A stretch of 64,000 nucleotides of DNA from Cinnamomum chago (Eukaryota; Streptophyta; Magnoliopsida; Laurales; Lauraceae): positions 69,518,001 to 69,582,000 of the forward strand of contig CP142451.1 in the NCBI GenBank assembly GCA_038049695.1, in the 5' to 3' direction. The position numbers and the translations under genes are program-made. Numbering within the stretch: the stretch's first letter is position 1; every line of letters starts with the position of its first letter. Below the pieces are notes generated by a model, which saw only the letters and a list, made by a program, of their open reading frames with translations, was not told where the DNA came from and searched no databases. Below, piece by piece: positions 17,447 to 64,000 of this stretch.

Positions 17447-18765
17447 TCCCATGCCCGCCCCGCATCGATCCGCCGTCCGCATTCCGCATCATTTGGTATC
17501 AGAGCTGAAGATCGATTCATCTAGATTTGAGATTCGACATTCCAACAACCCTGCTGAAACACCATCATCACCATATCAGCAGCACCAATAATCCCCAAAT
17601 CCATGCACAACATCATGGTCGAATCCCATTACTACCAAACCCAATGTGTCCAAACTCCAAACCCCATCCAAGCCCTAAACCCAATCTGCCCGAATTTCCA
17701 CGACCCATCCCAGACACAATCAAATACTAAAACCCAGTCTGAAACCCATCCTCTCTTCAACCCTAAACCCAGTCCGAAACCCAAAACCCCAATCTCCCGG
17801 ACCACACCCCACCTAATTGAACACAAATTCCCTTCACACAAAAAATAAAAAAAAATAAGGAAAGAGAAGATCCACAAAAGAAACAAAAAACGAAAAAAAA
17901 GAGATCGAGAAAGGAGAAGAGAAACAAGCAGAAAGCGTACCTAGCACCTCCCCAATCCACCATCGCAGTCATCTCCAGAGACCATCGATCCAACATCTCC
18001 GCCACTGGTCTCCGCAAGCAACAGCACCACCACCAGCCATCGCATCACCTTCGTCGACATCAGTTGCCTTCATCATCGTCAACAGAGACCAAACAGAGCA
18101 GTCGCAGCAACTCTTCTCCATTGCAGTCTCCATCTTCATCTTCAACAGCACCGAGAGAGTCACCACCATTCAAGTCCCTCGTCGCTATCAGTAACCTAGG
18201 CAAGCACCACCGTCGGCTGCAAAGATCAACCTAGCAACAACCTCTCTCTTCTCTCGCTGAAGAGCAGTCACAGCAACTCTTCTCCATTGCAATCTCCATC
18301 TTCATCTTCATCAGCACCGAGAGAGTCACCGCCATTCATGTCCCTCGTCGCTATCATTAACCTAGGCAAGCACCACCGTCGGCTACAAAGATCAACCCAA
18401 CAACAACCTCTCTCTTCTCGCTGAAGATTGCTAAGAAGAAGCGCATCACCAAATAAGGCAATACACACACAGAGAGAAGAGCCTCTTCCCCTTCACACGT
18501 GCATCACTGTTGTGATGTGACAAGCCCAGCAGTGGGCATGATTTTGGATCAAGCTCAAGTCCGGAAAAAAAAATGTGTTGAGCCCAACCTGACAACTACA
18601 ACAGCCAGCATCACTGTCATCATCCAAGTCGAGGCCTACTTTGATCAAATCAAATGATTCAAATTTGGTTTGCTGATATCCTAATCATTACGATCAACAA
18701 TTTGTCTTCGCCTGTGAACTCCGGACACACCAGATATACGCAGAAGGTCAGTTCATAATTTTTCA
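17447..18765 (+). other. Leader region of the gypsy-like element
   Basis: This holds the primer site (17494-17505) and a long, C-rich, low-complexity leader. A duplicated block is present: agcagtcgcagcaactcttctcc near 18097 recurs as agcagtcacagcaactcttctcc near 18265, each followed by nearly the same sequence for about 100 bp. No protein gene is credible here. Confidence 0.5.
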
Positions 18766-19153: not shown

Positions 19154-22100
19154 TTTCATTGTGAGAGATGGAAACAGAACACAAAGTATGCTAAATGCAG
19201 TGCCCATGAGGGTCGACTGTTCTCATATTATATAGGGGTTGAATGCCCTAATTACATGCAATTATCAGTATCACGTCTTATCTAGATCCTAAAGTATAGT
19301 TTTACAAACTAAGTATGTACAGTTATCTTTGACTAAGTAAAAGATAATGACTCCCCCCCCCCCCAAATTGATGCTGGAGAGTCATAGAACAGCAATTTGG
19401 AGACGAGAAATTGATGTCGAGGCCGAGGAAGTCCCTTTGTGAAGATAACTGAAACTCTGTAGGGATATGAGGTAGGCTAATGACATCCCGCTTATATTCA
19501 TCCCGAATAAAGTGGCAGTCAACTTCGATATGTTTGGTGCATTCATGGAAGATGGGATTTTCGGTGATTCAGATAGCCCCAGTATTGTCAGCATGCAATG
19601 AAGTAGGAGAGGTTTGAGTGAACCCAAGTTCGGAAAGAAGTCCCCATAGCCATAAGATCTCAAAACAAGCAGAAGACATTGCCCTATATTCATCTTCCGT
19701 GGAAGATCTGGACACACATTCTTGTTTCTTGCATTTCCAAGAAATGAGTGAATTTCCAAGGTACATGCACCAAACGAGTAGTAGAACGACGTGTCTTGAC
19801 AGTCTGCCCAGTCAGCATCCGCATAAGCGGTCAGATGAAGAGGATTATCATTTAGATAATATAAACCATGAGGGACAGTACTCAGCAGATAGCGGATAAT
19901 GCGCTTCACAGTTGTCAAATGAAGATGTCAATGAGCGGTCATGAACTGGCTCACAAGATTAACAGCATAAGATATGTCAGGTTTAGTGATGGTGAGATAG
20001 ACAAGACTTCCCACCAAGTGCCGGTAGGTATTAGGATCAGGAAGATCGCCATCATCTTTACTCAGCTTGAGATTTACCTCTACGGGTGTATCAACAGGCG
20101 AAGAATCATGGAGGTCAGCCAACTCAATAAGGTCTAATGTGTATTTGTGTTGATTAACAAATAGACCTTTGGGAGATTGATGCACCTCTGAGATCAAAAA
20201 ATAATGCAAAGGGCCCAAATCCCTCATATAGAAGTAATTCCTGAGGGAATCTTGGAGAGATTTGATCATACCATCATCCGTGCTGGTGATAATATTATCG
20301 TCAACATATACCAAAAGCATAGTAACCCCAGTGGATGTGTGGCATAAAAAGAGAGATGGATCATAAGAGCTCTGAGTAAAGCCACTTTCGCATAAGCGAC
20401 CCTTGAAGGTTCTGAACCATGCTCGAGGAGCTTGCTTTAGACAATAAAGCGATTTTCGCAATCGACGGACACACCTCTTGGAGGGAGAGGAGATGCCTTG
20501 TGGTATACGCATTTAGATTTTTTCGTGCAGATCCTTATGGAGAAATGCATTTTTGACATCCATTTGGTATAATGGCCAAGATTTAGATGCAACAATGGCG
20601 AGTAGTAACCGATGTCATTTTTGTCACAGGTGCAAACGTTTCCTCGTAGTCAATGTCATACTCCTGTCTGTTTCCGAGTGCCACAAGTCCAGCTTTGTGT
20701 CTATCCAACGACCCATCAGATTTAAGTTCGTTCGAGTAGATCCATTTGCAACCAATGGGTTTAACTGCTAAAGGACACTCCACAATATCCCAGGTGTGAT
20801 TCTGATCCAATGCATCCAATTCCACCTTCATGGCCTAGTTCCAGCAATCTTGTTGTACATCCTGCAAATAAGAACTTGGGATAGAGACAGAAGATAGGGT
20901 GGTCATCAAAGAAGTATGGGTAAATCCATACCGCTCAGGCAGTCTAGAATTTCTGGTGGAGCAACACAAGGCATGAGTAGGCGTGGAACCATTTGCCGGT
21001 GGAGGATCAGGAGGACGGCCATCTGCAGTGGTAGGTTTTTCCCGTCGGTGATATACAAAAGCAGGATTAAACCGAGTAATAGTTGTTTAATCCGAAAAAC
21101 CGAGTAAGAGAGTTGGTGAAGATGGATGAGGACAGTCTATGTGAGTTTGGAAGAAATATTGATTTTCAAAGAAAATAACATTTCGAGAAACCCTGATACG
21201 ACGACCAATGGGATCATAACAAACAAAACCTCTTTGATTAGTGGCAAAACCCAAAAAGGCACACATGTGAGATTGCGCTGTTGGTTTCGTTCTTTTTGTG
21301 GGGGGTAAATGAACGAAGCAAACACAGCCAAAGGTATGGAGGTGATCAAACACAAGATGATGACCAAACAGTTTAAAATGAGGCGTGAAATGAGCAATGG
21401 TAGGGGAGGGAAGGCGGTTTATGAGATAGACAGTTGTAGTGAGAGCTTCAGTCTAGAAACGAGGGGGAACGGATGATTCAATCAGAAGAGTTCTAGTTAC
21501 ATTAAGAAGATGTCCGTTTTTCCGTTCCGCGACTCCATTTTGTTGTGGAGTATACGGACAGGTACGTTGAGAAATGATTCCTTTATTGTTTAGGAAAGAT
21601 TGAAAATCCTTGGAAACATACTCCCCCCCGAGTCTGAGCGCAAAGTTTTAATGGATTTGGAGAATTGGTTTTCAACATAGTTAACAAAAAATTTAAATGC
21701 ATTAAGAACATCAGACTTCAAATGTAATAAATAAATCCAAGTAAATCTGCTGTAGTCATCAATGAATGTTACAAAGTACTTGAAATGACTATGGGAAAGG
21801 GTCGGAGCAATACCCCAAACATCACTGTGAATCAAGTCGAAACATGCAATGCTCCGTGTTTTGGAGTGTGGAAAAGGTAAAGTTTTACTCTTTCCTAATT
21901 TACAAGCATCACATTCAAAAGAAGCAAAGTCAATAGGTTTATTTAATAATCTAGATTGAAATAAAGTAGACAATGTAGACTGTAGAGGCATTCTGATGAC
22001 CAAGTCTATTATGCCACAATCGAGAATTATTCTGAATAAAAAAACAAAATAACTGATGTAAAGTTTTATTCGAAATAACTGAAGACATTGGTAAGGAAAA

Positions 22101-24512
22101 AAGTCTTCCACGCTTAGGCCCCCTTGTGATCACTTCCCCCGACTCCTGGTCCTGCACAACACATCCAGAAGAAGAAAATGAGACATTGTAATTATTTTCA
22201 ACAAATTGACCCACAGAAACCAAATTAGTAGCAAGATGAGGAGAAACAAAAACATTGGTTAATGGTAAGGGGCCAAGGGTATCACCAACAGAGGTGATGG
22301 GAAGATGATCACTGTTGGCAGCTTGAACATTGAGATGAGCAGTGTAAGGAACAACATTTTGTAATTTTATGGGTGAAGATGCCATATGGTTACTTGCACC
22401 AGAATCTAAGTACCATGTATTGGTAAGAGAGGAATCAGTACCTGCAATGTTCATGGATGTCAAGGCAATGATGATCATTTGGTTTACCATCTTAGGGGTG
22501 AGAGGAGCTGGGGACGCAGATTGTGATGAGGAACCAGGCTGTGAGGATGACTCATACTGCAGAGTACCACTGAAGTAAGAGGATGCATATTGTGGAGTGG
22601 TCACTGTGTAAGCAGGAGCTGGCGGCACTGTGTAAGTACCAGGAGCTAACTGCACATAGTTGCAAGAAGTAGAATTGTGAGCCTTCTTTCGACATTCGTC
22701 AATAACATGACCAGTGGCCTTACAATATCTGTAAATTTTCGCCTTGCATTGATTTGCATAGTAACCATATTTTTTGCAGGTATGGCATTGAACTTTACTG
22801 ATGTCCCGGGGAGGTTGTCTGGTTGTAGCAACATAGGCAAACGGAGCCTCAACAGATCGTTGTTATTCCAGAGTAGTTTTAGTAGCCAAACGTTTTTCTT
22901 CCCGCAAAAGTTCCTTAAGGCAATCATCCAAGCTAGGAAGAGTAGCCATGCTCATCAAGTTCGATCTAACTGTCTCAAACTCCAGACGAAGTTTCATGAG
23001 AAGCTGATCCCGATGACTACTTTGCTGTAATGGAAGTAATTCCGGTAGAAGCGTTGCAGACACCGTGGCAAACTTAATCTCATCATATTCGGACCACAGT
23101 CTGCGGAAGCCATTGTAATATTCCTGAATATACTAGATGCCTTGAGTGAATTGAGAAATTTCAAGTTCCAATTGAAACTGGCGAGCAGCATTGCCTTGTA
23201 GATAAATCTTCACATTTCACGGGCATTTTTGCAAGGTTTTAGGTTGAGGATAAAATGTGATTCAACAGGGCCCAGCAATCAGGTTTTGATTTTAGCATCC
23301 TTCGTCTTCCAAGCTAAAATATTTTTATCGTCTTCCTCAAGTTGAGGTTCAAATCCATCAATATGCCCCCAGAGTTCTTTTCCCTCCAAGTAAATTTGAA
23401 ATTGGAAGGCCCATGAGGTATAATTTGTTCCATCAAAGCGAACCAGGGCAATCTCATATTTTTCCATTACTAAAGACTAGTAGGAAGCACACACAAATCA
23501 TTCTGCCGAAGATACTGTCAAGGAAGACAGGGTGCTAATCCTCTATGTTTGGAGAAAACCAAGTTTTAAAATAGTGGAAATTGAGCTGCAGTACTGTTGC
23601 AGTCCAATCGTAGACAGATCAGACCACAGTCAAAATTGTACTAACACAATCAGGAGGTGTCACAGCAGACAGCAACCAGCAGCCAGGAACGGACGTGAGA
23701 AGATGTCCAAACCAGTTCCTAGAAGCCACAGGCTAAAGAGATTACAAAAGTAGTGCACAGAAAAGAGGTCCAAAACAGTTCCCAGAAGAACAGAATAAAC
23801 AGTGCGCAAAAACAAGTCACAGGCTGACACAGACGACCCTATCGTCACTGTGTAGATCTGCACGTGGGCCCCACCAAGCGATCTATTGATAGATCTGAGG
23901 ATGGGGATGGTTCACAGCAAATTTCCGCAACTATTGGAAGAGGTCTCAGGTAGAACGAATCCAAATCCAAACTTTTGGGTGGCTGAGATGAAAAGAAATG
24001 GACAAAACTGATTTTCTACAAAAAATGGTGGATGGCCTACCTCTGATGATCCATAAATCTTAAGAAAATCTTCATAAATATGTATAAATCCAGGAGACCA
24101 ATATGGGCTGCTTCCGCTGAGTAGCAGATGATGATTGCAGGTGGGCCACATCTGATCTGAAACAATCAGGGATGATCAAAGACGATCAGGCTAGAGATAT
24201 GATCTCTAAAGGGCTTCCAGATCTTGGAAGATGACTAGGAGAGTCCACAATTCCTTGGATCTTGAAGAATAAAATTAGTTGAAGCACTAATTTTTGACTT
24301 GGTTCTGATACCATTTCATTGTGAGAGATGGAAACAGAACACAAAGTATGCTGAATGCAGTGCCCATGAGGGTCGACTGTTCTCATATTATATAGGGGCT
24401 GAATGCCCTGATTACATGCAATTATCAGCATCTCATCTTATCTAGATCCCAAAATATAGCTTTACAAACTATGTATGTACAGTTGTCTTCGACTAAGTAA
24501 AAGATAATGACT
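19154..24512 (-). mobile_element. Ty1/copia element with both LTRs, nested
   Basis: Two 199-bp LTRs, 19154-19352 and 24314-24512, flank a minus-strand copia body. From the 5' side (high coordinates) it has a primer site complementary to tRNA-Met (24303-24313), gag (about 23467-22640, with a CCHC knuckle near 22800), the GAG-pre-integrase box (LWHNRLGHQNAST, about 22015), integrase (21900-21300), reverse transcriptase (20831-19928; LLVYVDDN) and RNase H (to about 19570). A purine tract (G12, 19353-19364 on the minus strand) precedes the 3' LTR. I count about 12 differences between the LTRs (about 6%), suggesting an insertion a few million years old. It is broken in several places. The LTR ends are not the canonical TG/CA and no target duplication is evident. 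Confidence 0.88.
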
Positions 24513-35600: not shown

Positions 35601-38600
35601 AGAAGAAAAGGATTGCCTTGAGAAAAACTCAACCCACGAGTAGAAGTACCTAATAAGTATCGAATAATTCTTTTCACGGCAGTTAGGTAAAGGCGTCGCG
35701 GAGCATTCATAAACTCACTCACAAGGTTGACAGCATAAGAGATATCCAGTCGGGTAATAGTGAGATAGACAAGACTTCCCACTAATCGCCTTTACATGTG
35801 CAAGAAGCAGAGAGCCATCACCCTTCCGTAATTTAAGAATGACTTCTAATGGAGTGTCAACTGGAGTGGAATTTTGAACATCAGCAAGAGCAATAAGGTC
35901 CAAAGTGTACTTGTGTTGATTAATAAACAGACCATTAGGAGTTTGCTGCACTTCCAAGCCCAAAAAATAAGTCAATGGTCCTAAATCTTTCATATGAAAG
36001 GAGGTATTGAGAGAAGCCTAAAGAAATTTGATCATACCAGCATCGGTGCCGGTGATAATAATATCATCAACATAAACCAGAAGAACAATAACTCCTATAA
36101 ACGTGTGTCGAAGAAAGAGTGATGGATCATAGGGGCTCTGAGTGAAGTCAAGCTGACATTACGTTGACTTAAATTTGTCGAATCACGCTCGAGGAGCTTG
36201 TTTCAAGCCGTAGAGAGATCAGAATAACCCTGGTCATTTTGGCAACAGGAGCAAACATCTCCTCATAGTCAATACCATATTCTTAGCGGTTTCCCAGAGC
36301 AACAAGTCGAGCTTTGTGCCTATCCAAAAAACCATCAGGCTTAAGTTTAACCGAGTAGATCCATTTGCACCCGATTGGTTTAACTGAGGATGAACATTCC
36401 ACAATATCGAACGTGTGATTTTTTTCTAATGCACACAATTCTTCTTGCATCGCAAAAAGAAAATTGCATTCCACGGATGTGGATCCATACATGAAGATGT
36501 TCACAAAAAAGAACATCATAGATTCCAGCAAGCCATGGAATCCATGGTGTTTTTCCACATGCCCTAAAACTCACCTTCTCTAAAACATCTTTTGCTTTCC
36601 AAGAGGAAACCAATTAGTGAAGTTTTACCTCTATTTGTCCACTAAAGGAAATGAAAACCAGTGTTTAACAAGCCAAAAAGTCTGTCTATCACTTGGGCAA
36701 AGGGAGTCTTAATGTACTGCAGCTTTACAACGGTAATTTATATCAACTTCCAATGCCCGGCAAAAATGATGCAACATACTTTCACCAAAAAAAAGAAAAA
36801 AAGAAAAAAGAAAAATCATGCAGTACACTTCTAAATGAGTAGATACATTTCAAAAAATTAAGTCCACTAAGATTAAAATGTCATTAATGTCAGTCACTAA
36901 CTCAAATGCATAGTATCAAAATGGAATAAGTCTCCTTAGAAAATATTGAAAGCTTGCAAATCTTCCGATTCAACTTCATAAAAATAATTTATTTAGTAAG
37001 ATAAAAATAAGAAACTGCAGTACTTTCACCTGTTGGCCCTTGACAGCAATAGTAAATGGTGGATAAGAGCCAGGTTGCATTCCTCTATTTCTAAGTAATT
37101 CTTCTAATCTTTGCCGTTCCTGACTAACAATTCCACTCATTCCCATAAAGTTTGATGGTGATTGCGATGCCGACTGATTCTGAGAATCCGCCTACAGAAA
37201 GAAAAGTTTATAAAATCATCACTCACTTGAAATTCAAGAATGAAGGTAGAGCACATGTCAGCAGTTTCTCGATGCTATTTCATGGACCAGAATACAGCAT
37301 TATGTAAAAAATTAACCATACATCATTCAAAATTGGAAAGGGAGACATTAAGCTAGTCTCAACAAATGTTAAATGAGAACAACGAAAAAGTTAATGTAGT
37401 AACAAAACCCCGCTTGGGTATATTTCCACTCACTTTATTGGCATCTGCATGAGACATTTCTAGTATTCCCATTCCAAGAACACCTGCTAAAACAGCGGGT
37501 AACATAGAGCAGAATCTAGGCAACTCAGCCGTTCGATTTAGCCTCAGAACTTTATGTGTTTTAGGATGGATGTTGAATTCAAAAGAGTGTCCTGCATCGA
37601 GAAGAATAATTTTAGGTAGAATAAAGATGATCCTTCTATGTATTTCAGTTTCCTACTAACCTAGAATGCAGCTATACAAGAAGCTTTATCTATAAATGGC
37701 AAATATAATACATTCCCTCCAAATAAATACATTCCCACTGGATTGACAATAAGAGAGGAATGTTAGCTATTGCAAGTTTGATACTCAAAGATGTTTGTTG
37801 ATTCATAATAATAGTGCTCGACTGAAGTTATAAATATCATTGCTCTCAATATACTTGACTGGAACGGAACTCAAGATAAGACTACAATTGATGACAACAA
37901 TAAAGAAAAAAATTATTAATTACTGAGAAACTTCCCTTAGTCTTGTATATTTAAAAAATTATCCCCCCCCCCCCCCCCCCCCCCCCCAAACCCAACCAAA
38001 AAAAAAAAATAAACTTCTTCTTCTTTTTTATTTATTTATTTTATGGCTCGAGTGGGATAGAGCCGTCTAAATTGTTATTTTACTAATGAAAGTTTTTTCT
38101 ATTCCTTTTTGTTTTTGAAAAAAATGATGAATTTTTCTAAGGCTGGACTGCCAAATTTTCTTGCCCATGGCTTTCGAATTTTTTGCTGAGTCCTTTGTGT
38201 GATGATTATTATATTGCTTGAGATGTAGCTAGTTGTTGCAAATCTCTCCTTCTTTGAGTATTTATCTGGGATTTCTTTCAAGGAAGATAAAAAGCTGAAA
38301 CAAAATGTAAAAGTAGAAGCGCTTGAATTTCCAACAGCTAAATGTAAGCAACTTACATCAAACCATATTTTCCAAAAAAAAAAAATGTAGGAAAGAAAGA
38401 AAAATGACTAACCTAACCCAGAAATCGCTTTCTGGAGAAAACCCTTTTCCCGCAATAAGTAAATTTTCACCCACAGTAAGTAAATTTAAAAGAAGAAAAA
38501 ATGGTTATATGATAAACTATCTTAACATTTCTCTTATTCTATAGATGGCATAGTCATAGATAGATATGAGACGGGACATCTTCTTTATGTAACTATAAGC

Positions 38601-39088: not shown

Positions 39089-39145
39089 CCAAAAAGTTTT
39101 CGAGAGCAGCTGTATACACACTGCGTTTTGCTCTCTACCCTCTAC
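39089..39145 (+). repeat. Left terminal inverted repeat of the MULE
   Basis: It reads ccaaaaagttttcgagagca then acacactgcgttttgctctc, and pairs with the right end at 46075-46125. Confidence 0.55.
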
Positions 39146-39449
39146 ATCTCTTTACACAGTGGTCTTCAGTGCGGGATTTGCTCTCCACACTCTATATTTT
39201 CCCTAAAACACCCATTGCTGGACTTGATGAAACTACTCCCTACACTCTACATTCTTCCCTCCCATTTCACGTTCTGAAAACCGTCTTTCGCTGCACCTCC
39301 ACATCGACGATATAGCTAATTACGCCGAGCAATACAAAACCGTCTTCCGCTGCACCGTCTTCAGTGTGAGACCTCGTGTTCAGCCATCTCTCTCTTCTTA
39401 CCTTCTTCATCAAACTGCATTACTGTGAATCGTCGACTTTCCAACCTCC

Positions 39450-39875
39450 GTGAGTGATTTCGATTTGTTTTAATTGATTAGAAATGTCTGCAGTTTTGTT
39501 TTAAGATCAAAGATTTGGTTTTTTCAAAAAAATTTACCTCCCTCATTCACCTTTGCATCCCCCATTACTCCATCCATCGTCATCATTTTAGTGTCAGTAA
39601 GAAGAACTGGTTCGGCACTATGGGTCCGAAAACAGAGATTACTTTCGGCCTCGATGATCCGCATATATGGAATTATCTCGGTAGTATGGGGCCGAGAGGA
39701 AAAACTTTTCTCGGCCTCAATGAACCGAATAGAGTTTCATCTCTCGGCACTGTGTGTCCGATCAAAGCCTAATTTCACGGCTCTGTAACGCCGAAACTAT
39801 ATTTTCCACACGGATAGTCAGGGCCGAATGGTCTGACTCAGTGCTGCACTATGTACTGATATTGTTTTTTTCCAG
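39450..39875 (+). other. 5' UTR intron of the PMD gene, holding dyad array 1
   Basis: Donor CC|GTGAGTG at 39450 and acceptor tttttttccag ending at 39875, five bases before the PMD start codon. The intron is inferred from splice signals only. It contains the whole of array 1. Confidence 0.6.
39613..39826 (+). repeat. Dyad array 1: seven CGG-N10-CCG units at 33-bp steps
   Basis: Units start at 39613, 39646, 39679, 39712, 39745, 39778 and 39811. Each is exactly 16 bp, usually extended to T-CGG...CCG-A. The spacers are 17 bp, AT-rich and mostly unlike each other. The N10 core varies (CACTATGGGT, CACTGTGTGT, ATAGTCAGGG and others), so spacing and half-sites are better kept than the cores. See arrays 2 and 3. 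Confidence 0.95.
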
Positions 39876-39879
39876 ATAT

Positions 39880-41902
39880 ATGGATGTGCCGGGTACATCT
39901 AGGACTCGACCCACAGCGTCGAACAGGAGACTCCATCAGAGGTTTGTTGCTGATGAGGTCGATGATGACGAAGAAGTAGTTGAAGAACAACCCGAAGCCC
40001 AAGTGGAGACCGAAGTTTCCGAACCGGCAGAAGAAGTACGTCAACAAACTTCTTCTGCTGCTCATTATAGGACTGGAGATATTCCCGGGGGGGCTACAAG
40101 TTTGAGCCTGCTACCTAGTTTCAGGACGCATATTGCTGCAAGTATTTGGCAGCAGCAGGTTTGTGTTTAATCTTGGTTAACATGTTTTAATCTGTGATGA
40201 AAATTTTATTATCTTCACTAATTTGTTATTTATTTCGTTTTGCAGGAGAGACCGCCACTTAAATGCATATAAGCCATGGCCAAAAAATCACTGAATGGGC
40301 ATGGAATTCAGAGGGAAGGCAGAATACGGTTTTTAGTCGTCTCATTGGCCGTTCGGGGTTGGCTCCATTGGTGGCGACATCTTATCGTTCCATCAACAAG
40401 AAAATGATGTCAGCATTTGTGGAAAGATGGCAGCCTGAGACAAACACATTCTACATGCCTTTTGGTGAAATGACGATTACCCTTGATGACGTGGGCACCA
40501 TTCTTGGGATCCCGGTCACTAGAAAATCTGTATCATTTGAGCAACTGTCATTTGAGCGATCAAAGACACTTGTAGAGCATGGTCTTGGGGTCACATCCCA
40601 GCAGGCACACGAAGAGTTAGTAGGTGTGCGGGGCTCGTCGGTTAGACTGGAGTGGCTGAAGGACCTATACGGAGATGTGACTGATGCGGATCCAGAAGAG
40701 CACATTAGGCATGCCGCAAAGCATATCTATTGTATCTCTTGGGATGTACACTCTTCGCAGACAAGACCGGCACGAGGGTTCCAGTGGTCTATCTAAGGCT
40801 GCTAATGAACTTCGATGAGGCACGCACCTATGCTTGGGGAGCTGGTGCGCTTGCTCACCTATACCGACAGTTGGGGTTTGCTACTCGGAGTGGTGTCAAG
40901 CAGATTGCAGGATACCTTACTCTACTAGAGGCATGGATTTACGAGCATTTCCCCAGGTGTAGGCCTCACCAAAACCGCACATACACAGAAAATTTACCGC
41001 GGGTGCATCGCTGGGTGCCACGAAGAGAGTCTGGGGACCAAATGTCCAACTTGCAGTCATTACGAGAGGCACTTGACGATCTTGGTGCCCATGAGGTAAG
41101 TTCGTATAAGTTATAAATTCCAAAAATATTTAAATGAGTATCGTATAATTTAACGTATGCATTTGTCGATTAATGTTGCAGGTGGTGTGGGACCCCTACC
41201 GAGAGCATAGGGCAGAACACCCCTTTCACGAGGTCGCTTATTATACTGACTATATTAAGTGCATGGACATCGTAGAACCATATCATCCTGATCGGGTGCT
41301 TAGGCAGTTTGGTAGGGTCCAACGCATTCCCCCCACTCCACTAGCTCCACAGCGCGCCAGTAGGGGTGCCACCGCAAATCAATATCGGATCGCTTACAAT
41401 TACTTGGATCAAATATGGGAGAGATGGCATAACCACGTCCTGTCTCCGATAGAGCGTGGTGTGCCTGCGTTGCACCCATGGGACTTTGCACCCAATTATA
41501 TGGAATGGTTCCTTCGAGTGTCGCATCCAATCATTCAGAACCCTGCACATCGCTCCACGTTTAATCCGCGTGTTCAAGATTCTATGGGCAGCTCTTCTAT
41601 TGACCCACGTTTGGTAAGATCCTTGACGAGCATATCTATCATATTAAGTATAACCAACTGTACAAACATTCTAATTTGTTCATTCTGTGATTAATTAACA
41701 GCGCATCGTGAATGCCCAAAGTATTATTCAGCCTATTCTGAGGAGAGGCCATACTCTGAGTGTCCAAGATCCTGATGCCTTGTACACGGCCCTTGAGGAC
41801 GTCAACAGGGTCCTAGATGGAGTCGATCCAGAAGATCTTGTTCATAGACCGCCACGGAGCGAGGCACGCACTTACAGCCGCAGGGCTAGACGTGAGGTCT
41901 AG
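39880..41902 (+). CDS. Plant mobile domain (PMD) protein of the MULE
   Basis: Exons: 39880-40158, 40246-41095, 41182-41613 and 41702-41902, with GT-AG introns. Start MDVPGTSRTRP, then an acidic linker rich in E/V. The PMD (PF10536-like, also annotated as aminotransferase-like or 'PP7 long form') begins with HGQKITEW and includes FVERWQPETNTFYMPFGEMT, ITLDDVGTILGIPV, YLLGCTLFADKTG, YAWGAGALAHLYRQL and LEAWIYEHF. The C-terminus is basic (YSRRARREV). Host PMD proteins (MAIN/MAIL type) act in silencing and gene regulation, and PMD genes are also known in transposons. Exon 2 is shifted from exon 1 by a 2-nt (TA) excess near 40262, and again by one nt near 40715-40722, so this copy is likely nonfunctional as read. 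Confidence 0.8.
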
Positions 41903-42176
41903 GATGTGGACTTAGCATGTGATATGTATTTTGTTATGATTATAAACTGAATTTCAGCAATTGTTTTGGGTAACAGAGATGTACCACATGTAAAACTTTA
42001 TGGATATAAATTTTTATGTAAAAATTTCTTATCACCTTTTGGCCACTTTATGGATATCGTTTTTTGTGCTTCATTTTGTATTGATGTTGCTTTCTACACA
42101 GCATTTATTTGAAATAGATAACGTAATTTGTAAACTAGTATTGTTTCAGGTAATGTACACAGCATTTTGTATTGCT

Positions 42177-42390
42177 CGGCGTCTCAGGGCCGAGAATATG
42201 TATTTTCCTCGGCGTCTCAGGGCCGACCGAATTCGGTCTACTCGGCGTCTCAAAGCCGACCGAATTCGGTTTTATCGGCGTCTCAGGGCCGATAAAATGT
42301 TATCTGCTTGGCGTCTCAGTGCCGACCATATTTGGTATACTCGGCCTCTCAGGGCCGACATTATAGTTTTAACACAGCTTCTCAGAGCCG
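42177..42390 (+). repeat. Dyad array 2: seven units at 33-bp steps
   Basis: Units start at 42177, 42210, 42243, 42276, 42309, 42342 and 42375. Three are identical (CGGCGTCTCAGGGCCG) and the others differ by a few bases (TGG in unit 5, CAG in unit 7). The spacers are 17 bp. It lies between the PMD stop (41902) and the transposase stop (42582), in the shared 3' region. It reads open as an 11-residue repeat in more than one frame because 33 is a multiple of three. Confidence 0.95.
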
Positions 42391-42581
42391 AGCAAAATAT
42401 TATAACTCATATCAGGACCACTCAGTTGAAATTGTCGTAAGCTATATGCAATTAAGAGATATAGAATGTTCTTTTATAAAACAAAGTGAAAATGTTCTCA
42501 TCTTAATTTACAAAATGCTCAATTGCATTAAGCTCTTAAAAAACATTGGATCCGCATTGACATCCTTATAAAATATAACAA

Positions 42582-45500
42582 TCATTCTAGATCGATGGTT
42601 TCGCATGTGGCAACTGATGGACTTATAATCTCTCTGAAATATTGGATCCGAGATTGATAAGCTGTATCCCAACCATCTGCAGAAGGGTGATGGTGACGAA
42701 TCCAATTAGTAGCAATAGGAGGAATTGGATGACCCTGTACGAGGAAAACCTACATATAAGAAGGAGTTCAAGTGAGTCACGGCATTTCAAGTAAAATAAA
42801 ATTTGGGAATCTATGCATCTACTATTATCACCTGAACAAAGTGGTTTTGATTGACAAAACCGATTGCGATCTCCCGTCTAGCAGCAGTAGGAATAGGGAC
42901 CGATCGAAGAGGAAGAAAAGTCAAGCATTGCTGATTTGACAAATGGTATAGGACAACGTTATAGTGCGAGGCAATTAGATGTCCCATGTCCGGCATCGTC
43001 ATCCATCGATCATATGGAGGGCAATCCCCTTGGTACGATATAATATTGAGAAGTTCATCAACCCTTTGGTGTGATCCATATAGTTGTCTGTAGTGTTCTG
43101 CATGAGTCACCAACTCTCTAGAGAGATCTTTCCGTACCTGTTGCCACGAATCCTCACCAAGTCCCATCAACCCTGCAATGGCTCTAAAGCCACAATTACC
43201 ATCCGCATTGACATCTTTTACATGATGAATATAAGACCTTAAGCAATCTGGGAGTGTGTTAATATAAGTGGTTGGCTTCAAATTTCGGGTGCGGATGACC
43301 TTTTGCTTAGGAATCAGCTTCTTCACGGGCACCAAAGAGGCCCCACTGCTGACAATAGTCTCTTCCATCTTTAAGACAGGAGAATAACTATCCTGAGCTG
43401 ATTCGGCATATTCAAAGGAAGAGGTTTCACGTTTAGTAGAGTTGTGCAATTTCAATTTGGGGCGCCCCCGACATTTAGTTTTCGAATCTGGCTCGATCAG
43501 TGAGGTCGTCTCAGGCTTTGCAAGCTCCCTAAGCTTATCCAAGATCTGTAACTTCTTTCTCGAATCATAGCCCCTGAACTGTTCGACAATTAAATCTATC
43601 TCTGGCATGCAATCCAAATTGACACTGGAGTCCTGGTCATAAGCGGTATGTAGTAAGTCAAGCTTGCGCCAATGCATATGCGTGCAATCTAAAGGAATAG
43701 GGCGACCGGCACTTCTGTATTCTGCAATCTCATGAGCACAAGGTAGGCCATGTGTTTGTCGAAGTACACAGCCACAAGCATCTCTATCAATACCGACGGA
43801 TGATGCTCGTTTCGTCTCGGCCAAGATTTTCTCTAATGCACATATAGAAACGTTCCCACGAAGTTCTTTGAATTCAGAAGGCTTGAAATTGTGTTTGACA
43901 ACTGTCTTACTTTTTTCAAATGATGCTTTTATATCTGTATGTTGCAGCAGCAATAGGTTGTGTATCTTCATCCATGAGTCTTCAAAAGTCCCCTGACTTG
44001 ATCCAAGCTGCCGCTTCAGCTGTGCATGTGAACTCTCCACCCTGTTTGTAGTAGTGTTCCCAAGATGCATGACCTTGTCCGTCCAGGCAGCCACAAATCT
44101 ATCCTTGTACGCATCTAACCAAGACACTCTAACATACTGAAGTGCTGCAGGATAGGTAATGAACTCCTTTAGAAATAAGTTGAATTGCAGATTGTAATGT
44201 TTCTCTGTGGATGAAGAGACCAACATGTTCCAGCTCATTATAAACCGGTCGCACTTTTCCTTCGTCTCAAACAACTTCTTGCATTTAGCCAAGATATTTC
44301 TGTTGATATGCCATCTACATAAAAGATGTTTGGCGCCGGGGAAAACAATAGATATGGCGTTCATTAAAGTCATCTCTCTGTCAGTGACGATAATGCTAGG
44401 AAGAACACCCTCGTCAATAACTTTGCGCAAAATACCCAATGCTCATGAGTAGCAATCTTCACGTTCATTCTGGAGATATACAATGCATACCGAAAATGTC
44501 TTCTCTGTGGATGTAACCCCAACAATCTCCAATAAGGGCATTCGATACCGATTGGTCTTGTAGGTGCAGTCCATTATCAACACATGAGGAAATGCACGCA
44601 AGAGGTCTACGCTGGTAGGGTGTGTGAAGAACAAATCAATGACAGTATCTGTTGTAGGACATTTCCTATGCCACTCAATGTAACCATGCTTCGCCAATAA
44701 TTTCAACAATTGCTGCATCTGATTCCGTCCAGCCCTCTCCGCAACTTTATGTCTTTGAAGTGCATTGTAAATGGTCTTCATTGTGCTTACATTTAACTCA
44801 TTTCTATGTTTCAGTGTCACCAAGATATCCTTTGGCCGAACCATATTCTTGGACATGTCCACCAGCACTGAAGTTTCATCCTTTGTTAATCTCCCTGCAA
44901 ATGAGTGCCCTTCCAGAAAGTCTGTAGCAGGATGATTATGCACACCACACACTACATGCAACATCCATTCCTCATTTGAGCCAACCACTTTACCTTGTAA
45001 CGTGAATGGGCATCCGCATTTTTTCGAACCAGTCTGCTTCAATTTCTTCCCACCAGTCCCGTCTTTAGTAATCCTCATGTTTCTATAAGACCCACTCCTC
45101 TCACACCCAAGGGTCAGCCTTGGTTTTTTATTTCTCCTGTTGGGCGCTGCTGATGTCTTAATCACAACAATGAAACCATTTCTCCTCCCAACATCACGAG
45201 CCCAATTAATTAGGGAATCTCGACTTGTGAATATCTGCGCATAACAAAAAAAAATCATATTGAACAAAGTGACTACATCAATTTAACTATCGAATGATTC
45301 ATCTCGATTAATTACCTCTTCGGTGATAAACTCATTACTATAGTCGACCACACATTCCGAGCCAACCTTGCTGCATTCAGTAGGCGCATGAAACTGCTAT
45401 AGAACCAATTTTGTTAGAATACGTAAATGACACAACTGCACGGCTCTGAATATCCGGTCAAAATTCAATTGTTCGGCCCTGCATGTCCGCATATTTTTCT

Positions 45501-45726
45501 TATTCTCGGCACTGTAGTGCCGTGAAAAGTACCTATGTTCGGTCTTTCAGGGCCGTGAAAAATACCTCTGGTCGGCCCTGAAAGACCGTGTAGAGGACAT
45601 TCGGTCGGACATACAGGGTCGAGCAATTCGTCTCTACCGATTTACAAAGCTTGCGATGAATATGCTTACCTCGACGCTCCTAGAATGATCGGGAGACATC
45701 TTCTGCTTGTCCTTTTGCTCTTCCAT
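42582..45726 (-). CDS. MULE transposase fused to an OTU-like cysteine protease domain
   Basis: Exons 45726-45670, 45396-45316, 45234-42832 and 42749-42582 join in phase to 902 codons. Domains: FAR1/WRKY-GCM1-like zinc region (about residues 60-160; GCERSG, CGCPF, CGVHNHP); MULE core with candidate catalytic D268 (IMDCTYKTN), D331 (VTDRE) and E446 (NRVESSHAQLK); SWIM finger (about 533-547; CGC...LPCAH); an AT-hook-like RGRPK near 635; and an OTU domain with DGNC (C727) and H844 (NQNHFVQ). The last exon adds GHPIPPIATNWIRHH. One in-frame TGA at residue 310 stands where a Trp would be expected; otherwise it is open. Cut-and-paste transposase with a probable deubiquitinase-like or structural tail. 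Intron 1 carries array 3. Confidence 0.85.
45397..45669 (-). other. Intron 1 of the transposase gene, holding dyad array 3
   Basis: Donor GAG|GTAAGC and acceptor ctatag|CAG, phase 0 on both sides. The whole of array 3 lies inside it. Confidence 0.7.
45441..45621 (-). repeat. Dyad array 3: six units at 33-bp steps
   Basis: Plus-strand starts: 45441, 45474, 45507, 45540, 45573 and 45606. Five have exact CGG-N10-CCG; the sixth ends TCG. Units 4 and 5 are exact reverse complements of each other (core TCTTTCAGGG). Unit 3 has 7-bp perfect arms (CGGCACT/AGTGCCG). Confidence 0.95.
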
Positions 45727-46074
45727 TGATTAAGAATGCTAGCAAATTGAGTTTCAACTTTGAATGAAATCAAGATTAATGAGGTGCAGTCAATTGAGAA
45801 TGAAGTGAGGATTCAAACCGAGAGAGAAGATGAAAGAGGGAGGAAGTAAAGATCAGTAAAATGCGGGAAGAAGTAGAACTTCATTTCATCATGCAGAGGA
45901 GTGAATGGAAGGAAGTGGAGAGGAGGAGTGAAACCCTTAACGCTCCACGTTCAGACGTCTCAAGTGGAGGGAAAATATGCAGTGTGCAGATAGCATTTCA
46001 AGTAGTGTGGGAGGGCTGAAGTTCATACATTTTGGTAAATTTACAAGTGGGCATTTTAGTCACAATCTATTGCA

Positions 46075-46125
46075 GTGTGTGGAGAGCAAAATGCAGTGTG
46101 TTGGTAGCAGCACTCAAAGTTTTCC
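46075..46125 (-). repeat. Right terminal inverted repeat of the MULE
   Basis: In reverse complement it reads gggaaaactttgagtgctgc then acacactgcattttgctctc. Confidence 0.55.
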
Positions 46126-51207: not shown

Positions 51208-51601
51208 GACCATTTGCAGGTGCATAAAATGCTGATGAAAAGCAATGTTTGATTTTGTATTTTTCACAAAATCTCTGCACTTGTTGGTTCTTGAAAGGAG
51301 TTCCATTGTCGGTAATGATCCTTTGAGGGATGCCAAACCGACAAATTATATTTATTCGAATAAAGTTGACGACTTCCACAACTTTAAACGCTTTGAGTGG
51401 AATAGCTTCTGCCCACTTAGAAAAATAATTAATGGCGGCAAGAATGTATTGGTGGTTAAGAGATGATAGTGGTTTTATGGGCCCAATAATATCAAGTCCC
51501 CATGCTTCGAATGGCCATGATGCCACCGTGGGGTGCAATGGTTCTGGTGGTTGATGAATAAAATCTGCATGTATTTGGCAAACATTGCATTTTTTTAGCA
51601 A
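51208..51601 (-). pseudogene. Integrase part of the Tat element
   Basis: SWPFEAWGLDIIGPI and RIITDNGTPFKNQQVQRF carry the first two acidic positions of the retroviral-type integrase core. The remainder is lost at the junction with copy C. Fossil. Confidence 0.8.
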
Positions 51602-52406
51602 AGTTCATTGAATCAGCAACCATAGCGGCCCAATAATATCCCATTCTCTTCAAATGCATATGGAGTTTTGGATCTGATTGATGCGATCCACAAGTTACTG
51701 AATGCGCTTCATTTAAAGCTTCACGGGATTCAATATCTAAAAGACATCGAAGTAGTACTCCATTTAATGATCGTCTATATAAGACACCATTAAGTAAAAC
51801 AAATTGTGGTGCTCTTCTTCTGATGTCTTTCTTATCTTTTGAGTCCTGTGGGAGCCTTCCATATTGTAAAAATTCAATAATTGGTTGTCGCCAATCTATC
51901 GTTTTGATTTCTATTACTGAGATGATATTGCTTGTTTCAGTTGGAGTTCTTTTCAAGACTTCTTGAATATTTGGAATAATTCGCCTTTCTTCAATCTTGA
52001 TTGGCAAATTAATTCTATTTGTTTGGGCCAGAGTTGCAGCCAAATTAGCGAGCGCATCTGCTTGGGTATTCTGTCCTCTTGGCATATGATAGAGTTGAAA
52101 ATTTTGAAAATTCCCAATCAAATTCTTAGCTCTTTCAAAATATTCGATTAGCTCAGGCTTTCTCACTTCATAAACACCTGTTAATTGATTAACAAAAAGT
52201 TGTGAATCTCCATGTACAATAAGAGATTCAACACCCATTTGAAGTGCTAACTCTAGTCCAATGATTAAAACTCCATATTCAGTTATGTTATTTGTACACG
52301 GCTCAACCAAAACAAATGAATATGGAAGCATTCCATTTTCTGGAGTCAAGAATATAACTCCAGCCCCAGCTCCTGATCTTTGTGATGCACCATCAAAAAA
52401 TATTTC

Positions 52407-53947
52407 TCAAGACTTGCGAATTTCAGTACAAAAGACATCTTCATCTGGCAAACTTTCAGATAATGGTGAGTTATCAGGAATTGGATGTGCTGCAAGAAAG
52501 TCAGCTAGTGCTTGTCCTTTTATTGCTTTTTGAGGAACACAAATGATTTCAAATTCTGATAACAAAAGCGTCCATTTTGCAAAGCGCCCTGATAAAGTTG
52601 GCTTTGACATAAAATATTTCAAAGGGTCAGCTTTAAAAATGAGACGGATTGAATGTTCAAGGAAGTAAAGTCGCAGCTTTTGTACTGCAAATATTAGTGC
52701 CAGACACATTTTCTCGATAGGTGAGTAATTATTTTCTGCACCAACGAGTGTTCGACTAAGATAGTAACAAGCATTTTCTTTTCCTTGTCCATTTTTTTGG
52801 GCTAGGAGTGCACCCAATGAATGATCTAAAGCAGTGATATAAAGGATCATTACTTTTCCTTTTATTGGCGTTACCAATACAGGAGGATTCGTAAGATACA
52901 TTTTTATGTTATCTAAAGCATTTTGACATTCTTCATCCCATTCAAATGAGACTCCTTTTTTCATTAATTTAGAAAACGGTTGACATCTTCCGGAGAGATT
53001 GGAAATGAATCTTCGGATATAAGCCAATCTTCCTTGAAGACCCCTTAGTTCGTGTAAATTGCGGGGTGGTGGCGTATTGAGTATAGCTTTTCTTTTATCA
53101 GGGTCAATTTCGATTCATTTATGTCGTACAACGAAACCCAAGAATTTTCCTGATGTAACTCCAAATGCACATTTAAGGGGGTTCATTTTGTATTGATTTT
53201 TACGTAAACATTCAAAAACTTCTTTTAAATCATTAAGGTGTTGAGATCTATGTTTTGATTTAATAATTAGATCATCAACGTAACATTCCACTTTTTATGT
53301 AAGAGGTCTTTAAATATTTGAGACATAGTTTGTTGATATGTGGCTCCCGCATTTTTTAAACCGAATGGCATAATTGTATAACAGAAAATGCCTTTAGGGG
53401 TTCTAAATGCTGTGAGTTCTTGATCTTTTGGATCCATTTTAATTTTATTATACCCCGAAAATCCATCCATGAAGGATAAAGCTTCGAAACCAGTTGCGGC
53501 ATCTACCATAAGTTCCGTGTTGGGGAGAGGGAATTCATCTTTTGGACAAGCAACATTTAAGTCATGAAAGTCTACACGAACATGGATTTGTCCATTCTTC
53601 TTTTTGACTGGGACAATATTTGCTACCCATGTGGGATATTTTACTTCGCGAATGAAATTGGCTGCTTGGAGTTCATTAATTTCTAATTCAATTTTAACAG
53701 CAAGATCCGGATGAAAACGATGTTGTGCTTGTTTAATTGGTCGCTTAGAAGAATCTACTGCTAATTTATGAGTTACTACTTTTGGGTCTAGTCCTGACAT
53801 TTCTTTATAGGACCAAGCAAACATATCTTTATACTCAGACAAGTAGGCAACATATTCTTTCATTTCATCATCGGACAATAACTTGCTTACATAAGTAATT
53901 TTTGGTTCTTCTGGAGAACCTAGATTAATTTCTACAAGTTCATCCAT
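52407..53947 (-). pseudogene. Reverse transcriptase and first RNase H of the Tat element
   Basis: The RT carries RVDFHDLNVACPKDEFPLPN and FCYTIMPFGLKNAGATYQ. The connection RFISNLSGRCQPFSKLMKKG leads to RNase H with YYLSRTLVGAE. It is related to the plus-strand fragment at 9.5-10.7 kb. Fossil. Confidence 0.85.
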
Positions 53948-59931: not shown

Positions 59932-61191
59932 CTAATTTCCTGCTAACTTGATGGTCCCATCATCTATCAGAGCTTGTATCTTTTCTTTCAAGACAAAGCA
60001 ATCAACAGTTTTATGATTAGTCATCCGATGGTATTTGCAAAATTTCGAATGATCGACTTTATCAACTTCATCAAGTTTCTTTGGCTCTGGTAATTCCAAT
60101 AAATTTTTCTCCAAGAGTTCTCCAAGGAGATCTTCAACATCTTCATTCGGAAAAGGGTAAACCTTCTCCATTCTTTCTTTTAATGATGGACGATTTTTTC
60201 CAGTTTTTTTTCTTTTGTTCTGATTGAATAGGTTTATCCACTTGTTTGTCTTTGGATTTCCCAACTTCAACAATAGTGACCTCTTTCTTTGGCGGTGCTT
60301 TCTGATGAGTTGTTGACTGTGATGGTGTCACATTCTTGGTTCTAGCAACTTCCTTATTATGCCTTAAAGTGGAATTTTCCAGGTCATGATCCCTTTGATT
60401 TAAGGCTTCAAACGTTTCCACAGGTGAGGCTAGAAGAGGATGTTGTGTCCCTTCAAGCAAAGTTGGATCTTTTGCTTTTCTGAGAGTGGGGTAGGACAAC
60501 GGAGACTGAGATCTCTCCATCGTGATATGTATTGCTCCGCAGTTTCATTGGATCGCTGAGAGGCTTCAGTGAGTCCTTCAATCCCGACTTCTCGATTAAT
60601 ACTGTAGAAGTGTTGAAGAAATGCATGTTTCATATCCTCCCATGTCGCTATTGACCCAACTGGCAGGTGTGAATACCATGTGAAAGCCGCTCCTTTTAAT
60701 ACTGTTATAAATTGTCGCAAAAGGAGAGCTAGGTTTTTGGATGTGTCTCCACATAAAGCAACAAAATGTGCTAAAAATTCGATCGGATCACCTGAACCCT
60801 CAAAATTTTCAAATTTGGGCATTGTATATCCCGGTGGAAATGGGACTTCATCCATGTGGGATGGATAAGGTTTTTGGTAATCAAAATAAATTTTCCCAGC
60901 AGGCGTTGTGACTTCTTTGACTGTTCGAAGCACAAAATCTTTAAGGGAATTTAGATCCACATTATCATTTGACAAACCTGAGGAGCGATCCTTAGATGGA
61001 TTTTGTTTCAATGGGGCAGTTTCTGCTTCCTTTTCATTTAACTTCTGTTGCAGTTCAGCTATTATCTCCTCCATTGTTTTATCTCCTTCAGCTCCTCTAA
61101 CGAGAACATTAGCGAACGATTTTTGTGAAACAGATGGAGGTGATGGAGTGCTGACATTATTGTGCACATGTGGCGGAAATTCTTCTTCCAT
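59932..61191 (-). pseudogene. gag region of the Tat element
   Basis: Retrotransposon gag helices: YTMPKFENFEGSGDPIEFLA, AFLQHFYSINREVGIEGL and SNETAEQYISRWRDLSLRC. They are followed by a knuckle-like CxxH...HxxxxC. Fossil. Confidence 0.8.
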
Positions 61192-61676: not shown

Positions 61677-63380
61677 AGAGTGCTGCTTCAGCAATAACGA
61701 TCACCTTGCGACTGTTGAATGCAACATTGATTATTGATTCCATTTTCCCCCATGCATTTCCAACATACGTAGGATTTAGTTAAAAGAATCAATAAATCCT
61801 TCCAAGATGAGAGGAAGAGTATGTCCCACTAGGTGTGCCAAAAATTTGTACACAATAAATTCATGCATAAATAAAGAAATGCACCAAAATTCATTGGATA
61901 CAAACTTCCCTCCATTTAATGGGAGGTTTTACATTCAATTTTGTGGGATCATCATACTCCCGATCGTGAGAACTCATCGATCGTTAATTACATCCTCAAT
62001 GGAAAACCTCTGATTATCAAGACATTGACTCAAATAAATTTACAAAGAAAATACAGGAATGAAATAAATAAATAAATAAAAATTAACAAGTTCCTGCTCT
62101 TCGCCATTGCTGTCAGAAGTAGTTCTTTAGATTTCACCTAGATCTACATGATCATTTCCCGATTGAGTTCATGAATTGATGAATTTGACGATGATTTTTT
62201 TAGTGGGTCATCCCTTGTATTTTATTGGCCCATTAGAATTATGTTCATAATGGACTTAAAATGGTCAGGCCTCACTATAAAACAGGTTGAATTGGGTAGG
62301 TTGACCCACACCTTATGATTACATGTTTGACCTTTTCTCTTTGAGAGATTTTTTTTTTGAAATTTGAAAAGTGGTGGTTTGGGCTCCCTTGTATCAAGGA
62401 GAAGTTCTTAACTTCCTCCCTTTTATCTCTTTAAACTTCTTATACCCAATTCATACGTAGAAAGTTAGAATTGCTCGGAGATTGAAGAAGTTTGCATTAG
62501 GAATACGAACACCTTGTAGAGATCAACAGTGAGGTATGTTTGCCTTCTTTTTTTTTTTTATCATTTAGTATTCTCATTTGTATTGATTAAAATTACATGT
62601 CAATCTATATATATATATATATATATTTTTTTTATACGATCACATTTCAATTTTTTTTAGCCAATATTGCAACCCAAATTTTTTGGTCATCATCATATTC
62701 AAATTTCTGCTAAAATTAGGGTTGTAACTTAGTTCAATTTCCAATCATTACTTGGGCTGATTTTGGTCTATTGTTTTGACCCAGATTTGACCTATAAGTC
62801 TTGGCAAGGTTTTGACCTATAAGTATAGTTTGATTTAGACTTGTAATTTTGTCGTGATGTATATTTATAATTCTGATCTAATTTAGGCTTGTAATTCTAG
62901 CCCAGTTATGGCCTATTTTTGACCTATCATTCTGGCCTGATTCGGGCCCTAAACCTAGCCTGATTTAAACCCAAAATCTGGCCTGATCTAGATTGCAATT
63001 GAAACCAATTACAACAGTACATCTTTGGTTAGTACTTTAGGCACCTCCTTAGGCCTGTCGTTGTGCTCACCAATTTTATTTTTTTTTTGACTGGTATGTG
63101 CTGGCTTTTTTTCTTTTAACCCATTATCATGACCACTTCAAGTCAATATTGTGATTATTATTCAGCCCTTTTTAACCTATATTTGGGCTATAGTTTTGAC
63201 CCATGTCCAGGCGGGATTTAACTTGATTTCTGATTCATTCGAAACTATAATTTGGACGTTTTTTATAACTAAATTTTGAGCTCATTTTCAGCCAATATTT
63301 GAACAATATTTCAGACCAATTCTGTCCAATTTTTTATTCATAATCAGCCTTATTTTTACTATTGTTCGGATTGATTTTCA
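61677..63380. other. Noncoding region 5' of the Tat gag
   Basis: I see no gene. It may be the leader and LTR of the Tat element. From about 62750 the phrases gacctataa and ggcctgatttaggc recur irregularly. An (AT)n run lies at 62606-62626. Confidence 0.4.
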
Positions 63381-63570
63381 ACCCATTTATAGAAACCAGT
63401 TTAGGTCAAAGTTTCACCCATTCAGAGAAATCAGTTTGGGTCAAGGTTTAAGGGTCATTGTAACCTATTTAGAGAAAACAGTTTGGGTCAAGATTTAGGG
63501 GTCAAGGTTTAACCCATTTAGAGAAAACAGTTTGGGTCAAGGTTCAACCCATTTAGAGACACAGATTGGG
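63381..63570. repeat. Five imperfect tandem repeats of 35-50 bp
   Basis: Each unit starts acccattTAGAGAAA-like and continues cagtttgggtcaaggtt. Starts are near 63380, 63418, 63461, 63511 and 63547. Unit length varies because an extra aggggtcaaggttta piece is present in the middle units. Confidence 0.7.
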
Positions 63571-64000
63571 TTGGCTTATAAACCCATTGGTAATCAATAG
63601 ACCAATGTAGGCAATCATGCTAGAAGAGTGTAAATTTCAGTATTTTCTTGGGTTGGTTTTGGTCTATAATTCTGATTCAATTTTTGAACCATAAATCTGG
63701 TCTAGTTTAGAATTATAGGTCTAGAATAGTACTAGCCTGACTTGAAGTTATAATTATGGCCTGAATTAGGCCTAAAATCTGTCTTAGATTAGACCCCATA
63801 TTTTGACCTGATTTGGACCCAAAACCTAGCCAGACTCAGGCCCAAATTCTGTCTTAAATTAGACCCAATATTCTTGCCTGATTCAGTGAACATTTGAAGT
63901 ACACCCAGCCTAATTCCAATTACTGACTGGGCTGTCTCTTTACCCATAGAGAACCTATTCATAGGACCTATTTATTTAGAAAAATCCTGCTTGTTTGTTT
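63571..64000. other. Noncoding tail of the window
   Basis: I see no gene. Dispersed gacctgatttggaccc-type phrases continue to the edge. Confidence 0.4.

Follow-up and report, generated by a model that had tools for sequence, protein, structure and literature searches.

The window analysed here is a 64-kb stretch of Cinnamomum chago contig CP142451.1 (64,000 nucleotides, contig positions 69,518,001 to 69,582,000), and all positions given below are those of the window. It contains a Mutator-like element (MULE) that carries a gene for a FAR1+MULE transposase on the minus strand and, convergent to it, a Plant Mobile Domain (PMD) gene on the plus strand. The element harbors three arrays of a CGG-N10-CCG motif that recurs at a step of 33 bp, and we propose these arrays as candidate binding platforms for an element-encoded protein. 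The element and its arrays are the following:

39102-46115, no strand assigned: MULE, 7,014 bp, with a 9-bp target site duplication and inverted ends
39613-39826, no strand assigned: array A, seven CGG-N10-CCG units
42177-42390, no strand assigned: array B, seven units, between the convergent genes
45441-45621, no strand assigned: array C, six units, 181 bp

The target site duplication of MULEs is about 9 bp long, and a perfect 9-bp duplication, AAAGTTTTC, is found at 39093-39101 and 46116-46124. The terminal inverted repeats align well over the first ~45 bp and are degenerate further inward; together with the duplication and the transposase domain they identify the element as a MULE, while matches to PF10536 above the cut-off in three open reading frames (ORFs) inside its borders identify it as one that carries a PMD. 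The predicted intron in the 5′ untranslated region (5′UTR) of the PMD gene (39450-39875) contains array A, the first predicted intron of the transposase gene (45397-45669) contains array C, and the gap between the 3′ ends of both genes contains array B. A preliminary description of this DNA had placed the arrays inside one MULE and exclusively in its non-coding parts, and both statements hold, for A and C on the basis of the predicted introns.

The arrays comprise 20 units, 17 of which are exact and three of which carry one mismatch in the core. Unit starts run from 39613 to 39811 in A, from 42177 to 42375 in B and from 45441 to 45606 in C, and the step is 33 bp throughout, which confirms to the base the count and the period given in the preliminary description. 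Its constant N10 stands as well; as refinements, three of the 20 dyads are mismatched, and the units proved to be directional rather than plain dyads. The window holds 19 exact CGG-N10-CCG motifs, 17 of them in the arrays and single ones at 52977 and 61526, and no other chain with a 33-bp step was found in it when one core mismatch was allowed. A three-unit pattern with up to three mismatches gave 14 matches versus a mean of 0.00 in 100 shuffles. When the gap in CGG-Nx-CCG was varied from 4 to 30, 19 motifs were obtained at x = 10 and at most four at any other value; likewise, among CGG-CGG distances of at most 120 bp, 33 (18 occurrences), 66 (12) and 99 (9) were the most frequent, with a median of 2. 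Since the shuffles and the outstanding counts for N10 and 33 bp relative to other spacings agree, a chance origin of the arrays is excluded. Altogether 117 of the 120 core bases are retained, and the remaining three are transitions, C>T or G>A, located at CpG or CCG, which is compatible with later decay by methylation.

The genes on either side of array B comprise the following features, the introns of both having been predicted from sequence alone:

39450-39875, plus strand: predicted intron in the 5′UTR of the PMD gene; its donor is GTGAGT (39450) and its acceptor, TTTTTTTCCAG, ends at 39875
39880-41902, plus strand: PMD gene, predicted multi-exon, PF10536, last exon and stop read by eye
42811-45234, minus strand: transposase coding exon 3, with FAR1 domain, MULE domain and an OTU-like tail (unproven)
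45316-45396, minus strand: predicted transposase exon 2, in phase, GT/AG borders
45397-45669, minus strand: predicted transposase intron 1, 273 bp, GTAAGC...TATAG
45670-45726, minus strand: predicted transposase exon 1, MEEQKDKQKMSPDHSRSVE

The PMD gene would start with the ATG at 39880, downstream of the predicted 5′UTR intron. Its three ORFs with PF10536 (E-values of 2.1e-20, 1.6e-27 and 7.3e-12) jointly cover positions 5-346 of the 347 of the profile. The reading frame appears to be broken near 40270 and again within 40730-40796, and the gene is probably dead in the present copy. The three predicted coding exons of the transposase gene join in phase with GT/AG borders. Exon 3 matches PF03101, PF10551 and PF00872, and the MULE domain is interrupted by an in-frame TGA at 44443-44445, the two PF10551 halves flanking this stop scoring 38.2 and 40.8 bits (cut-off 27.6). 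In the tail of the transposase we spotted by eye DxxGNC and NHF, which we take to be OTU-protease-like motifs; for this part (42811-43300, minus strand) the Pfam family C65 scored 14 bits versus a cut-off of 24.3, OTUD5 was the second of two matches with an E-value of 0.88, no profile reached its cut-off, and the AF2 model with a mean pLDDT of 42.8 was too low for use. Scanning the six frames of the element for Zn2Cys6 and LOB-type cysteine patterns revealed neither in any single frame, a search that would overlook patterns interrupted by an intron. Scans for relatives, which used short peptides from one sequence as exact seeds and reach close relatives only, confirmed none for two transposase pieces and one PMD piece in a viral collection and none for one transposase piece in a collection of prokaryote genomes.

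The consensus of all 20 units is the 18-bp sequence TCGGNNNNTCAGNGCCGA, which consists of a strong half-site, TCAGNGCCGA, and a half that preserves the core only, TCGG. In their best orientations the units read - - + - - - + in A, all + in B and - - - + - + in C. In A and C, orienting the units raised the information of the ten inner columns from 6.00 to 8.64 bits, while 100 sets whose inner bases had been shuffled reached at most 4.33 bits after orientation (40 random restarts for the data, 8 per shuffle). With up to three mismatches, the oriented consensus matched 25 times in the window versus 6.00 expected, and none of 100 shuffles reached 25; 21 of these matches fall on the 20 array units, one unit being matched on both strands, and four lie elsewhere. 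The strong side thus flips within A and C, and the 33-bp register is unchanged; in C, the fourth unit is even the exact reverse complement of the fifth over 16 bp. The symmetry of the profile is maximal at the center of the dyad (1.76 versus 0.54 at the best other position), much of which is supplied by the fixed cores. Flips around an unmoved dyad center would be hard to obtain by head-to-tail copying and would suit a symmetric dimer requiring a good half-site on one side and an acceptable one on the other. This supports the dimeric DNA-binding protein suggested in the preliminary description as the likely reader, but not its placement of the sites on a regular face of the helix, as 33 bp correspond to 3.14 turns at 10.5 bp per turn and hence not to one exact face. 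Two adjacent spacers of array B contain palindromes, GACCGAATTCGGTC (14 bp, 42225-42238) and ACCGAATTCGGT (12 bp, 42259-42270), as a possible second motif.

To what extent the regularity reflects selection or descent may be judged from the sequence around the cores. For A, B and C in this order, spacer identity amounts to 0.41, 0.53 and 0.49 (about 0.3 by chance), inner identity to 0.32, 0.85 and 0.48 (about 0.26 by chance) and non-core identity, with the last unit of each array left out, to 0.40, 0.66 and 0.49, so that the homogeneous copies of a satellite are not seen in A and C and are partly seen in B. Star-tree distances among the 17 spacers add up to about 68, 40 and 38 substitutions in A, B and C, about 146 in total. 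Plants show a ratio of 0.1-0.2 indels per substitution, at which 15-29 indels would be expected, and yet none of the 17 intervals has changed in length; the estimate is crude, the star tree overcounting and compensating indels being invisible. All of these arguments for selection rest on one copy of the element.

Arrays with the same geometry from other genomes served as controls. A five-unit pattern identified 104 loci in the prokaryote genome collection, of which 99 have a non-core identity of at least 0.6 (lowest 0.50) and 99 an open frame. In the viral collection a four-unit pattern identified 10 loci, eight of them with a non-core identity of at least 0.74, the others being L008 (0.57), which bears no resemblance to the element, and L006 (0.38); each of the ten contains one or more open frames, a weak indication of coding where the DNA is rich in GC. 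The oriented two-unit consensus had no match in the viral collection. Three prokaryotic loci, L015, L065 and L098, are 33-bp arrays in GC-rich (0.70) records; their non-core identity (0.50-0.56) is the lowest among the 104 prokaryotic controls, and the letters of their units are similar. Both L015 and L065 are Streptomyces records, and L065 is without an open frame.

We consider it about an even bet (probability roughly 0.5) that the arrays are regulatory or anti-silencing binding platforms that belong to the element's own system. In this reading, a DNA-binding protein would dock on each 18-bp dyad as a dimer, whose subunits would occupy the strong half-site and the core half, respectively, in most units, and adjacent dimers would lie side by side at the fixed 33-bp step and pack cooperatively. 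The binder would most likely be encoded by the element, either as the PMD protein or as the FAR1-domain transposase, and by occupying the first intron of either gene and the gap between the genes it would keep the element genes accessible against host silencing. A precedent is VANC of the Arabidopsis VANDAL MULEs, a MULE-encoded protein that recognizes a short motif arrayed within introns and between genes and relieves silencing (PMC5735166, PMC10398659); here and below, the statements on published systems refer to the available parts of the cited accounts. We favor this reading because the cores are kept amid diverged sequence and 17 intervals show no change in length, because the strong side flips without loss of register, unlike what head-to-tail copying alone would give, and because the locations of the arrays match those of the tandem motifs bound by VANC21 in introns and intergenic DNA. 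The gain in information upon orienting the units and the symmetry peak at the dyad center also speak for it, as do the raised CpG observed/expected ratio of the arrays (1.16-1.38 versus 0.60 in the other sampled non-coding pieces) and the earlier suggestion that MULEs captured PMDs for anti-silencing (PMC5418596).

Several observations weigh against an element-encoded binding platform. Neither gene product is known to bind the motif; moreover, both the PMD and the transposase gene look broken in the present copy, and hence any such protein would come from another copy or from the host. The VANC domains DUF1985 and DUF287 were not found in six ORFs of the element (Pfam-A, E 0.1), which comprised neither the short exons nor the last PMD exon nor the ORF at 42000-42440. 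The motif itself is different from that of VANC21, YAGTATTAY as compared to a CGG/CCG dyad, and the VANC21 motifs occur in one orientation while A and C are mixed (PMC5735166). With the strict strong-half pattern CGGCNYT, 14 of the 20 units have exactly one such half, four have none and two have both. The raised CpG ratio of the arrays is partly built into the motif, and the viral-collection array L006, located on a contig of 73% GC, is as diverged as A with the same geometry. Array B is fairly homogeneous, with TRF periods of 33 and 99, and there is higher-order similarity at 66 and 99 bp, the units A0, A2 and A4 resembling each other as do A1 and A3. Because of this higher-order similarity, we read part of the constant period as inherited, the arrays having also grown by duplication. 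The earlier argument that constant geometry with drifting sequence points to selection on spacing is partly supported by the 17 equal intervals, but not for that part of the regularity that is due to descent.

One alternative is an ordinary minisatellite that arose by tandem duplication only and owes its period to descent without any function. It would explain the inner similarity of B and the alternating resemblance within A, but neither the cores that are kept amid strong divergence, nor about 146 spacer substitutions without the indels expected, nor the orientation flips within A and C; in addition, 99 of the 104 prokaryotic controls stay at or above 0.6 in non-core identity and the lowest is at 0.50, versus 0.40 in A and 0.49 in C. 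We thus regard it as unlikely. Somewhat less implausible, although still doubtful, are host transcription factor sites that drive both element genes from intronic enhancers, for which dimeric zinc or CCG-reading factors such as LOB/LBD or AP2/ERF-DREB proteins are candidate readers. The position of A and C in the predicted first introns of both genes is in line with such enhancers, while array B at the 3′ ends of both genes and the lack of any further 33-bp core chain in the 64-kb window are not, and a rigid 33-bp packing is, to our knowledge, unusual for host enhancers. In favor of a host factor, the geometry equals that of the Put3 site CGG(N10)CCG, which can be read by a zinc-protein dimer (PMC5729217).

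Evenly spaced RNA hairpins had also been suggested in the preliminary description; located in the introns, they might act in splicing control or be a source of small RNAs, but the pairing data weaken this idea to the point of improbability. Compared with 200 shuffles that leave the cores intact, each of the three arrays has a more stable fold (z of -2.3 for A, -3.1 for B and -5.6 for C), and two of nine spacer registers, both off-center, pair slightly more than expected (the observed counts are attained by 66 and 161 of 2000 shuffles, uncorrected). However, the three inner pairs within units are formed in 20 of 60 cells with 23.6 expected, and spacer-centered pairing in 45 of 119 cells with 52.5 expected; the pairs (3,12) and (5,10) fall below expectation and (4,11) lies slightly above it (8 versus 5.9, P 0.17). 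Motifs in mixed orientation and the 16-bp inverted pair in C would by themselves give a surplus of folding, and Rfam at the gathering threshold returned no match. An RNA role is weakly supported at best and would be least improbable for array C. Landing sites of the transposase for excision, akin to the sub-terminal repeats of CACTA elements, appear very improbable: a FAR1 domain is present and CACTA ends carry direct and inverted motifs bound by TNPA-like proteins (PMC2613891), but 511 bp separate the outer edge of A, and 494 bp that of C, from the nearest end of the element, and B occupies its middle. Least probable of all is a coding repeat of 11 amino acids, to which the period (33 = 3 x 11) and one open frame through array B (ORF 42000-42440) would correspond, since stops interrupt all six frames of both A and C and these arrays lie inside predicted introns.

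Within the window, 24 ORFs of at least 130 amino acids were found, and of the 10 scanned outside the element six have retrotransposon domains and four no match. The retrotransposon fragments include 9898-10581 (RVT_1), 19928-20512 (RVT_2), 21951-22655 (Pol_BBD), 51492-52349 (RVT_3), 53267-53947 (RVT_1) and 60430-61191 (gag). A run of 25 C at 37963-37987 lies about 1.1 kb outside the element, two tandem 166-bp copies with 93% matches occupy 18095-18427, and overlapping tandem repeats of 35 and 47 bp, whose units have AACCCATTYAGAGAAA in common, occupy 63376-63571.

The preliminary description knew of no described counterpart to the arrays, which is too strong a statement, as the VANC motifs are tandem-repeated in introns and intergenic DNA of VANDAL elements (PMC5735166). 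Like the present element, VANDALs are MULEs, and their short motif forms tandem repeats, chiefly within introns, between genes and in the non-coding DNA of the termini (PMC5735166); here, the tandem repeats lie in predicted introns and intergenic DNA. The density of the VANC target motifs matters and the repeats are gained and lost (PMC5735166, PMC10398659), which we count as a further likeness. The two systems differ in the additional gene, VANC in the VANDALs and PMD in the present element, and in the strict 33-bp step, as a fixed step is not mentioned for VANC targets in the available text (PMC5735166). As a second model beside VANC, a likeness also exists to Spm/En with its TnpA protein and to other CACTA elements, in which a reiterated motif with a constant and a divergent sub-motif occurs in direct and inverted copies and is thought to be read by an element-encoded protein (PMC2613891), and activation of Spm by TnpA is accompanied by demethylation (PMC10398659). 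These elements, however, belong to a different superfamily, CACTA, carry their repeats near the ends and, in the case of Tgmt, vary in repeat length (PMC2613891). The site of the yeast zinc-cluster protein Put3, CGG(N10)CCG, has identical half-sites and spacer length (PMC5729217), but Put3 is a fungal protein.

Capture of a PMD by MULEs, as seen here, has been described by Ikeda et al. in 2017, who offered an anti-silencing role as speculation and considered the function of the plant mobile domain as still to be determined (PMC5418596). In grasses and Amborella, PMD-C is fused with MULE transposases, whereas here the PMD is encoded by a separate convergent gene, and no array is mentioned in the available part of that account, whereas the present element has three (PMC5418596). 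A PMD-carrying MULE with such arrays was not found in the open-licence literature by title and start of the abstract among the matches listed, nor was the combination of a rigid step with a PMD gene in the open-licence literature searched. The arrays resemble known transposon target arrays, while their rigid step and their association with a PMD gene are apparently new. A tentative and rather speculative extension is that the element represents a second, independently evolved MULE anti-silencing system, in which a captured PMD protein or the FAR1 transposase would read phased dyads as a cooperative, evenly stepped filament. A candidate target of 18 bp in 20 copies within a PMD-carrying transposon makes the reading of DNA by the PMD or its partner transposase directly testable. 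If the binder is element-encoded, the arrays would be a further case of arrayed anti-silencing targets, with a geometry stricter than that described for VANC in the available accounts, and would point to convergent solutions among MULEs.

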